From Propionibacteriales bacterium (lineage in GTDB: Bacteria > Actinomycetota > Actinomycetes > Propionibacteriales > Nocardioidaceae): 64,000 nucleotides of DNA. The stretch is taken from contig JAPLCB010000002.1 of assembly GCA_026392455.1 (NCBI GenBank), forward strand, positions 1-64,000, given 5' to 3'. The position numbers were made by a program, and so were the translations under genes. Each line of letters starts with the position of its first letter. Within the stretch, counting starts at the first letter, position 1. The notes beneath the pieces were generated by a model. It was not told the origin of the DNA, made no database searches, and was given only the letters and a program-made list of their open reading frames with translations. Shown here in pieces: positions 41,320 to 42,279 of the stretch.

Positions 41320-41412
41320 CGATAGCCTCGGCTCATGATCCTCACTCCGTTCGCCAACGAGCTCTCGGCCACTCGGCCTCGAGCAAGCTCGGGCACTCGA
41401 TAGCCTCGGCTC
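41320..41412 (+). repeat. 78-bp repeated element with duplicated -10/start module, copy 2
   Basis: CGATAGCCTCGGCTC occurs perfectly at 41320-41334 and 41398-41412. The first is followed by ATG 41335 and a 22-codon open frame ending at TAG 41401-41403; the second by the GTG of the glycosylase gene. Each TAGCCT (41323-41328, 41401-41406) is a -10 box 6 nt before a start codon. Spacing between them is 78 bp, as in copy 1 at 33216-33299. Confidence 0.88.
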
Positions 41413-42279
41413 GTGCCTGAGCTTCCCGAGGTCGAGGCCCTGGCCCGCGACCTGACCCAACGCCTCGACGGTCGGGCCGTCGTCCGCGTCGACCTGGCGA
41501 ACTTCAGCGCCCTGAAGACCTACGACCCGCCGCTGACCGCACTGTCCGGCGGTCTGGTCGACAGCGTGAAGCGGCACGGAAAGTTTCTCGACTTCGACAT
41601 CTCCGGGACGCACCTGGTCCTGCACCTGGCCCTCGCCGGCTGGGTCCGCTGGAAGGACGAGGTGCCGAAGGTCCCCGCCAAGCCGAACAGCAAGTCACCG
41701 TTGGCGGCACGGATCGTGCTGGACAACGGCGCCGGCCTCGACATCACCGAGGCCGGCACCCGCAAGAGCCTGGCGCTGTACGTCGTCCGCGACCCCAGCG
41801 ACGTCGAGGGCATTGCCCGGCTGGGTCCGGACGCCCTGTCCGAGGAGTTCACCGCGGACCGGCTCGGCGAGATCCTGGCCGGTGCCGGACGCGCCCAGAT
41901 CAAGGGCGTCCTGCGGATGCAGAGCAACATCGCCGGGATCGGCAACGCGTACTCCGACGAGATCCTGCACGCAGCGAAGATGTCGCCGTTCAAGCCCGCC
42001 AACAGCCTGACCGACGTCGAGCTCGCACTGCTGCACGCGACGATCCGGCGCGAGCTGGGCGAGGCGGTGGCCCGCGCCGACGGCCTGCCCCCCAGCGAGC
42101 TGAAGGGTGAGAAGAAGTCGAACATGCGGGTGCACGGCCGGACCGGTGAGGCCTGCCCGGTCTGCGGCGACACCGTCCGCGAGGTCTCGTTCGCGGACCG
42201 CAGCCTCCAGTACTGCGCGACCTGCCAGACCTGCGGCAAGCCGCTGGCCGACCGACGGATGTCGAAGCTCCTGAAGTAA
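41413..42279 (+). CDS. Fpg/Nei-family DNA glycosylase
   Basis: 288 aa. After Met removal the N-terminus PELPEVE supplies the nucleophilic Pro and the catalytic Glu of formamidopyrimidine-DNA glycosylases; GKFLDFDI contains the conserved lysine. H2TH region: IKGVLRMQSNIAGIGNAYSDEIL. The zinc finger has four cysteines (CPVCG ... YCATC) and keeps the arginine before the third Cys (DRSLQYC). An extra tail CGKPLADRRMSKLLK follows. It is therefore probably one of the actinobacterial Fpg-like paralogues; lesion specificity is unknown. GTG 41413 is leaderless. Confidence 0.92.
   Translation: MPELPEVEALARDLTQRLDGRAVVRVDLANFSALKTYDPPLTALSGGLVDSVKRHGKFLDFDISGTHLVLHLALAGWVRWKDEVPKVPAKPNSKSPLAARIVLDNGAGLDITEAGTRKSLALYVVRDPSDVEGIARLGPDALSEEFTADRLGEILAGAGRAQIKGVLRMQSNIAGIGNAYSDEILHAAKMSPFKPANSLTDVELALLHATIRRELGEAVARADGLPPSELKGEKKSNMRVHGRTGEACPVCGDTVREVSFADRSLQYCATCQTCGKPLADRRMSKLLK

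Follow-up and report, generated by a model that had tools for sequence, protein, structure and literature searches.

A dispersed family of short repeat cassettes with a covarying predicted fold at gene start codons of Marmoricola-clade Nocardioides

In a 64,000-nucleotide stretch from a Propionibacteriales bacterium (assembly GCA_026392455.1, contig JAPLCB010000002.1, positions 1 to 64,000; this whole stretch is here called the window), a DNA glycosylase gene is preceded by two copies of the 15-base sequence CGATAGCCTCGGCTC, at 41320-41334 and 41398-41412, which lie 78 bp apart and match with 0 mismatches. Each copy contains TAGCCT, then six bases, then a start codon, and the repeated unit is a 78-bp insert (41335-41412) lying between a promoter-like box and a start codon. 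What is this insert, how did it come to lie there, and what does it mean for the gene behind it? An earlier note on this DNA had described a perfect repeat, a duplicated leaderless promoter-plus-start module at both ends of the unit, and a small open reading frame (ORF) of 22 codons whose TAG falls inside the second −10 box (41401-41403), all of which our analysis recovered; it had proposed a translational switch or a mobile cassette with a target duplication. As judged by sequence comparison, the locus is a local instance of a dispersed repeat family of tiny (~78-bp) hairpin-forming cassettes at gene start codons.

Within the window CGATAGCCTCGGCTC occurs only at these two sites, even when up to 2 mismatches are allowed, and two such matches arose in 3 of 100 shuffles. 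The features of the locus are given below. Scores are from R1, a covariance model built from an alignment (A1) of 30 ungapped 78-nucleotide (nt) copies, among which are both copies in the window; R1 matches therefore lean to the A1 fold. The A1 copies were chosen by TANNNT and RTG at their right end, so that conservation of those columns is by choice.

41323..41328, + strand: left −10-like box TAGCCT, 6 nt upstream of the ATG at 41335, read from the sequence
41335..41412, + strand: the element itself, a 78-bp member of the repeat family (R1, 105.9 bits, E 6.8e-27 over the window)
41335..41403, + strand: small upstream ORF MILTPFANELSATRPRASSGTR, ATG, 22 codons and TAG, stop-to-start spacing +9
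41341..41353, no strand assigned: hairpin 1, whose pairs covary (C-G/G-C and G-C/A-T); not predicted by RNAalifold
41359..41369, no strand assigned: left arm of the main stem, with the 'guide' GAGCTC; covariation with 41403-41412
41376..41394, no strand assigned: apical hairpin, from RNAalifold and covariation
41401..41406, + strand: second −10-like box TAGCCT, element-borne
41403..41412, no strand assigned: right arm of the main stem, from covariation, overlapping the second −10-like box and the spacer
41413..42279, + strand: host gene, Fpg/Nei-family DNA glycosylase, GTG start, 288 aa
33287-33207, − strand: second full copy in the window (R1, 96.6 bits, E 2.5e-24), its span taking in the ATG of the downstream gene

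The stop TAG of the small ORF (41401-41403) forms the first half of the second −10-like box. The glycosylase has Pfam N-terminal, H2TH and zinc-finger domains, each above its own cut-off, and its best match to the NCBIfam Fpg equivalogs reaches E 1e-44, yet stays under the curated cut-offs.

Further copies, which the earlier note had suggested looking for, were readily found. Besides the second copy in the window, the bacterium's own genome (G000, 3.55 Mb) gave 22 matches in a DNA search, 38 places matching a 24-base head pattern with up to 3 mismatches (0 for the reversed-pattern control), and at least 47 places matching R1. A chance repeat or a mere promoter consensus is ruled out by these at least 47 matches together with the conserved 78-nt interior. 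At E ≤ 0.01, R1 had matches in at least 12 of the 24 genomes of the genus (Marmoricola-clade Nocardioides), with at least 47 places also in G019, 27 in G015, 22 in G004, 18 in G016, 14 in G007, 8 each in G020 and G021, 6 each in G008 and G018, and 1 each in G006 and G023. At most 150 candidates were scored per genome, and these counts, like the tally of at least 205 matches, are lower bounds.

Outside the genus the family thins out. At up to 2 mismatches the head pattern was present in 17 of 58 relatives (own genome included), 15 of them in the genus and 2 in other families; several genus genomes had only one 2-mismatch match, and both matches in other families were likewise single and at 2 mismatches; the reversed pattern gave 0 here as well. 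Among named genomes, the exact pattern was found in 36 stretches, all from Marmoricola, Nocardioides or "Nocardioidaceae bacterium". A family-wide scan of 341 genomes at 1e-4, with stricter filters and at most 13 candidates scored per genome, gave matches in 18, namely the 12 genus carriers and, weakly, 6 of the 317 non-genus genomes; the weak matches inspected included tRNA-end neighbours and one tandem array. Our literature search of open-licence papers found no description of such an element in Nocardioides or Marmoricola. For closer study we examined 154 distinct copies out of 171 model matches in fetched loci (100 and 59 loci), a set that does not hold all of the tallied R1 matches; the 36 exact-pattern stretches are outside the count. 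The copies are not independent, G004 and G016 being close relatives, and deep nodes of a tree from three proteins were weak.

The position of the copies is highly specific. In 111 of the 154, the right end is flush with the ATG, GTG or TTG of an ORF on the same strand with 80 codons or more, as compared to 307 of 20000 random positions (1.5%). The flush copies mostly carry TANNNT 5-8 bases before the gene start (100/111), and TANNNT also precedes the left end in 79 of them. The seven host genes tested code for thymidylate synthase, a bifunctional nuclease, FAD synthetase/riboflavin kinase, dUTPase, a DUF2344 protein, an inositol phosphatase family protein, and Fpg. Eleven flush copies lack the right −10 box; of these, seven carry GGAGG (five copies), GGAGC (one) or GGACG (one) eight bases upstream of the gene's GTG. 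All seven of these Shine-Dalgarno-like copies, two of which are orthologous, have their stop at RTGA; as to their left flanks, one is itself Shine-Dalgarno-like (G019, aaggagacaccgcATG) and two have a −10-like box.

Comparison of orthologous genes with and without a cassette then indicated what the insertion had added. The clearest case is thyA (thymidylate synthase), whose start was read in 17 of the 24 genomes: empty sites have the form GGTAGGTT-spacer-ATG (G007, G008, G015, G018, G019), and filled sites the form GGTAAGTT-spacer-cassette-RTG of thyA (G000, G004, G016, G021). The gene for the bifunctional nuclease (PF02577) is filled in G000, G004, G019 and G021, by coordinates in G015 too, and empty in 17 other genomes with the start read (2 of 23 starts were not recovered). 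At the filled sites of both genes the left promoter corresponds to the promoter of the empty sites, and the right side at thyA looks like the element's own sequence. We therefore take the left promoter to be native and the right −10 box to be cassette-borne, with the insertion falling just before the start codon. Insertion before RTG fits both genes, and a duplication of RTG alone is also compatible.

The glycosylase gene itself is present in 23 of the 24 genus genomes. In 18 of the 22 other genomes we read the 150 bases upstream and found no complete element; this reading leaves out G015, G002, G010 and G013 (L127, L140, L142 and L145), where the start was misassigned. A −10-like box often lies near the glycosylase start in these regions, for example TAGCGTGACGCC-ATG in G004. 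Upstream of fpg in G019 (L129), GGAGCACTCGCTAGGCTCGG before the glycosylase ATG resembles an isolated right end, perhaps left over from a former copy. In M. tuberculosis, a variable tandem repeat (VNTR3239) likewise lies immediately before the main fpg gene, and the length of the repeat was linked to expression there (PMC2734929); the parallel with the present locus is probably a coincidence.

The left end of the cassette is an ATG, GTG or TTG in 101 of the 111 flush copies, and opens a small ORF whose stop position follows the length of the copy. In the 69 copies with length divisible by three (class 0), the stop lies in the −10 box at +9 spacing in 67; in the 25 with remainder 2 (class 2), a TGA overlaps the gene start as RTGA, at −4 spacing, in 22; and in the 7 with remainder 1 (class 1), the stop is at +5 of the gene (RTGNNTGA), at −8 spacing, in 5. 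Overall, 94 of the 101 small ORFs stop at one of these three spacings and two more within one or three bases, and for 96 the first base of the stop falls between −13 and +5 relative to the gene start. Spacings of −4 and −8 are reported to be enriched between coupled genes (PMC12548453). The coupling-type spacing in 94 of 101 suggests that upstream transcripts may still feed the gene. A conserved peptide was set aside as an explanation; covarying positions alter amino acids, and copies of classes 1 and 2 shift the frame.

In class 2 and class 1 the stop uses bases of the host gene. An A at +4 is found in 22 of 25 class-2 copies, 22 of 69 class-0 copies and 1 of 7 class-1 copies (class 2 against the rest, Fisher 3.7e-7, on non-independent copies), and, counted by distinct gene, in 17 of 20 of class 2 as compared to 15 of 48 of class 0. 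The thyA of G000, the only class-2 thyA copy read, has GTGA, while the other 16 thyA genes read have C at +4, three of these carrying class-0 cassettes; the stop at −4 in G000 thus looks as if it arose after insertion. A gene pair with an M-x-RMRT start parallels thyA, being class 2 with ATGACC in G000 and class 0 with ATGGCC in G015. For the +5 stop, which is present in 10 of 69 class-0 genes, the class-1 nuclease-gene copy of G019 has GTGCGTGA, which makes the stop, as against GTGCGCGA at the class-0 copies of G000, G004 and G021; this case is weak because the CGT also occurs in 2 cassette-free genes among the 21 read. Two orthologous small ORFs with distant stops (L181 and L223) have TAC in place of TAG; the frame thereby stays open into the gene, which may give its product an N-terminal extension.

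Aligned copies also revealed a common fold. In A1, 96.9% of the cells are paired, as compared to 82.8% in shuffled and at most 47.8% in slid alignments, and 10 of the 18 pairs show changes on both sides. RNAalifold alone retrieved the main stem and the apical hairpin, with 8 double-change pairs, and did not find hairpin 1. The spacer that separates the second −10 box from the start codon lies within the right arm of the main stem, and the stem ends flush at the start codon. Across 32 orthologous pairs of 78-nt copies, 27 of 90 changed cells were double changes that keep the pair, versus 0-4 when the partners were slid by 1-2 columns. These 27 cells amount to 18 gene-by-pair cases, some of which may reflect one copy replaced by another. 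The element has, by these comparisons, a strongly covarying predicted fold that is partly compensated at orthologous sites. Prediction of the fold from single copies was set aside as not notable, and it is covariation alone that shows the fold. No Rfam family reached its cut-off, the only match being to a microRNA at 18.3 bits with a cut-off of 95.

Which strand would fold is suggested by two signatures. On the plus strand, 62-64 of 67 copies keep TC facing TC in each of the two helices, which on the other strand gives GA opposite GA, a possible site for tandem sheared G·A pairs. The apex of hairpin 1 reads GCTNCGC, or its compensated form ACTNCGT, in 62 of 73 copies of 78 nt (here ACTCCGT, with ACGGAGT on the bottom strand), and the bottom strand accordingly reads GC-GNA-GC or AC-GNA-GT with N variable. 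Two 81-nt copies (L015 and L230) have C-GAA-G and C-GGA-G at the main apex, again on the bottom strand. Hairpin 1 thus shares its GNA-loop sequence with GCGNAGC, described as a very stable DNA mini-hairpin known from isolated oligonucleotides and aptamers (PMC4686876), whereas here it is predicted from the sequence. Reading the plus strand as an RNA tetraloop of the UNCG type would require a C-C closing pair, and this option was dropped for that reason. The TC/TC loops and the GCTNCGC apex therefore suggest that it is the bottom-strand DNA that folds, and the strand call leans on them because no G-U asymmetry was found, for which reason this indicator was dropped.

The inner arm, here called the guide, is complementary to the right spacer at 2.66 of the 3 positions scored, as compared to 1.36 in shuffles. 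Against the left spacer the value was 1.39 of 3 (1.01 shuffled) over all 67 copies of 78 nt, and 0.98 of 3 in the 45 copies with dissimilar flanks; it is therefore the right end to which the guide is complementary, copies with similar flanks accounting for the left match. The two 6-nt spacers of a copy are identical in 12 of 67 cases versus 1.1 expected from shuffles, and share on average 3.45 of 6 positions (2.70 shuffled), the flanks of most copies being different. Plain target-site duplication was set aside on this count. Of the earlier note's cassette proposal, the mobile-cassette-like origin is thus borne out by dispersed copies and empty orthologous sites, and target duplication as a general rule is not.

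Among known systems the MIRUs of mycobacteria are the closest, a likeness drawn from their description and not from MIRU sequence, and the element here would be a new variant. MIRUs (Supply et al. 1997, as cited in PMC12548453 and PMC2734929) are 40-100 bp repeats at 41 locations in M. tuberculosis H37Rv (PMC2734929), and a 2025 article in J Bacteriol describes them as apparently mobile, located at start codons, with an ORF coupled at −4 nt and minimal impact on genes (PMC12548453). Both are short dispersed repeats at tens of loci (at least 47 in G000) and partly tandem, with a three-unit 77-bp array here. As to a place at start codons with an internal ORF coupled at −4 nt, here 111 of 154 copies are flush, the exact −4 arrangement holds in 22 of 101, and the Shine-Dalgarno-like subfamily is the closest match to the MIRU arrangement. 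The main class here differs by its +9 spacing (67/101) with the stop within the −10 box, and the copies lie mostly at leaderless genes, bring their own promoter and show a covarying hairpin fold. REP/BIME elements, which are linked to RAYT (IS200-like) transposases, are likewise small, palindromic and structure-conserving repeats, but here most copies abut a gene start and do so in a single orientation. MITEs, Correia and ERIC elements share with them a small, non-autonomous and in some cases promoter-carrying form; here no link to an insertion sequence and no proven target duplication were found.

We consider it probable that the element is a short non-autonomous or formerly mobile hairpin cassette which inserts, in one orientation, exactly at the start codon, usually of a leaderless gene. 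It most likely moves, or moved, as folded DNA that lands at start codons. After insertion the native promoter (P1) would start its transcript at the RTG that now opens the small ORF, and the right end of the cassette would supply a new −10 box six bases before the gene start, from which a second promoter (P2) would again make a leaderless mRNA; in a minority subfamily the right end would give a GGAGG-like site instead. P1 transcripts could still serve the gene, with a stop at +9, −4 (RTGA) or −8 (RTGNNTGA) allowing translation to be handed over. The cassette would thereby persist at slight cost to the gene behind it, a view already put forward for the MIRUs of mycobacteria, and the fold closing flush against the start codon is probably kept as folded bottom-strand DNA on which mobility depends. 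That coupling and a spare promoter make the insertion tolerable seems to fit better than the translational switch of the earlier note, which is nonetheless possible. A bolder proposal, which we hold only tentatively and regard as rather doubtful, is that the element represents a new class of mobile cassette structured as DNA: the bottom strand would fold through GNA mini-hairpin loops and tandem G·A pairs, its guide arm would be complementary to the spacer of its own promoter, and it would land at leaderless start codons, rebuild a leaderless promoter or a Shine-Dalgarno site, permit coupling in any of three frames, and be moved by an enzyme of a kind not yet known.

Several observations weigh against the mobile-cassette reading. 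No Y1 transposase (PF01797) was found in the 24 genus genomes, with matches in 5 of 14 controls, and no transposition was seen. Of the 154 copies, 43 fail to abut an ORF of 80 or more codons; these include tandem-internal units, tRNA-end neighbours, degenerate copies and a GGAGCAAGCTCC-core type with the gene start ~13 bases further on. Five of the 101 small ORFs stop far from the gene, and according to several studies cited in PMC12548453, coupling is poorer at +9, the commonest spacing here, than at −4. As for the fold, in 52 of the 90 changed cells of orthologous pairs the pair is broken in at least one copy, folding of three single copies on both strands gave z of −2.1 to +0.7, with no clear margin over shuffles, and the folds so predicted differ from the covarying one. 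G-U and A-C cells are about equal (22 vs 26), so that wobble pairs name no strand. Finally, the 0.85 identity of orthologous copies is weak evidence of selection at the site because unrelated copies across genomes already share 0.80. Other candidate movers were also sought: the integron integrase TIGR02249 had no match above cut-off in the 24 genus genomes, Y2 transposase PF04986 none either, with the controls silent as well, and weaker tyrosine-recombinase matches were present in all 24 and likewise in all 14 controls. Mobilisation by an IS200/605 or integron-integrase enzyme was rejected, neither enzyme having been found in the 24 genomes. The most alike pair within any genome is 0.96 identical (0.90 at best in G000; fetched copies of 76-81 nt), and with no pair above 0.96 there is no sign of a fresh burst; with no transposition seen either, the family may be inactive.

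Three rival readings overlap with one another and with the preferred one, so that the probabilities we attach to them do not sum to one. A conserved cis-regulatory mRNA leader, close to the switch of the earlier note, is compatible with a mobile cassette but on the whole unlikely. On this reading it is the plus-strand transcript of P1 that folds; ribosomes translating the small ORF would open or close the structure next to the gene's start codon, and the cassette would be kept as a regulator to the benefit of the host. In its favour, 26 of 66 gene clusters are occupied in at least two species (one cluster merges two paralogous groups), and orthologous copies are 0.85 identical as compared to 0.63 at 4-fold sites of their genes, the copies being higher in 63 of 67 pairs. 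Distant orthologues, 0.90 identical over 12 pairs, agree at the covarying stem columns at 0.83 versus 0.44 for unrelated copies, as against 0.54 versus 0.40 at four unpaired variable columns, and both the compensated changes at orthologous sites and the stem end flush at the start codon point the same way. Against it, the seven host genes tested are unrelated, there is no plus-strand G-U excess, the kept TC/TC mismatches would weaken a plus-strand RNA, and no Rfam family reaches cut-off.

A selfish or passive palindromic repeat, whose structure would serve copying or stem from quasi-palindrome correction, with the ORF and promoter as by-products of where it lands, overlaps with the preferred reading and seems to us improbable in its own right. 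Correction of imperfect palindromes could match both arms without selection, left, right and guide sequences do match in some copies (the 12 of 67 with identical spacers), and no peptide is conserved, covarying bases altering amino acids. Such correction should also remove the TC/TC mismatches, yet these are kept in 62-64 of 67 copies, and the stop spacings and the A at +4 would be left unexplained. Very unlikely, finally, is a single-strand DNA element of the IS200/IS605 or REP/RAYT type, whose guide arm would pair with a cleavage or target sequence. In IS608 a guide pairs with the cleavage site, and the excess of guide pairing over shuffles, at the right spacer above all, recalls this; but Y1_Tnp is absent from the 24 genomes although the controls worked, and where the two flanks are unlike each other (45 copies), no match of the guide to the left flank is seen.

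A number of further loci bear on the wider family. Copies of 112-119 nt with a longer apical hairpin occur in several species (L025, L072, L238, L254), and the second copy in the window (33287-33207, − strand) precedes another gene with an ATG start (MGKSSRTKARSVAA). In the own genome, L039:1500-1731 (contig C3, near 255297-255528) holds three tandem 77-bp units of a second type, with the GGAGCAAGCTCC core; these precede a single gene that has a −10-like box. Related GC-rich hairpin repeats at L303, L305, L308, L244 and L159 have a right end that abuts an apparent part of a tRNA gene (e.g. GGGTAGGAGTCGAACCTACG), and are possibly a sister family at tRNA ends. In another genus, L302 (G208 C27:91106-91321) consists of tandem 69-bp units with a GTGCTTCGCAC hairpin, GC-GAA-GC on the other strand, and is perhaps a distant relative.

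If the mobile-cassette reading is right, the MIRU idea of a start-codon repeat that survives by coupling its own ORF to the gene would extend beyond mycobacteria, and to leaderless genes. The present data add evolutionary evidence to that idea: whichever the reading frame, stops lie at positions compatible with coupling, and the fold shows compensatory change. The naturally filled and empty sites would suit testing of how ribosomes may be handed over from leaderless small ORFs to the next gene, and the family raises the question of which enzyme moves a folded element of 78 bp.
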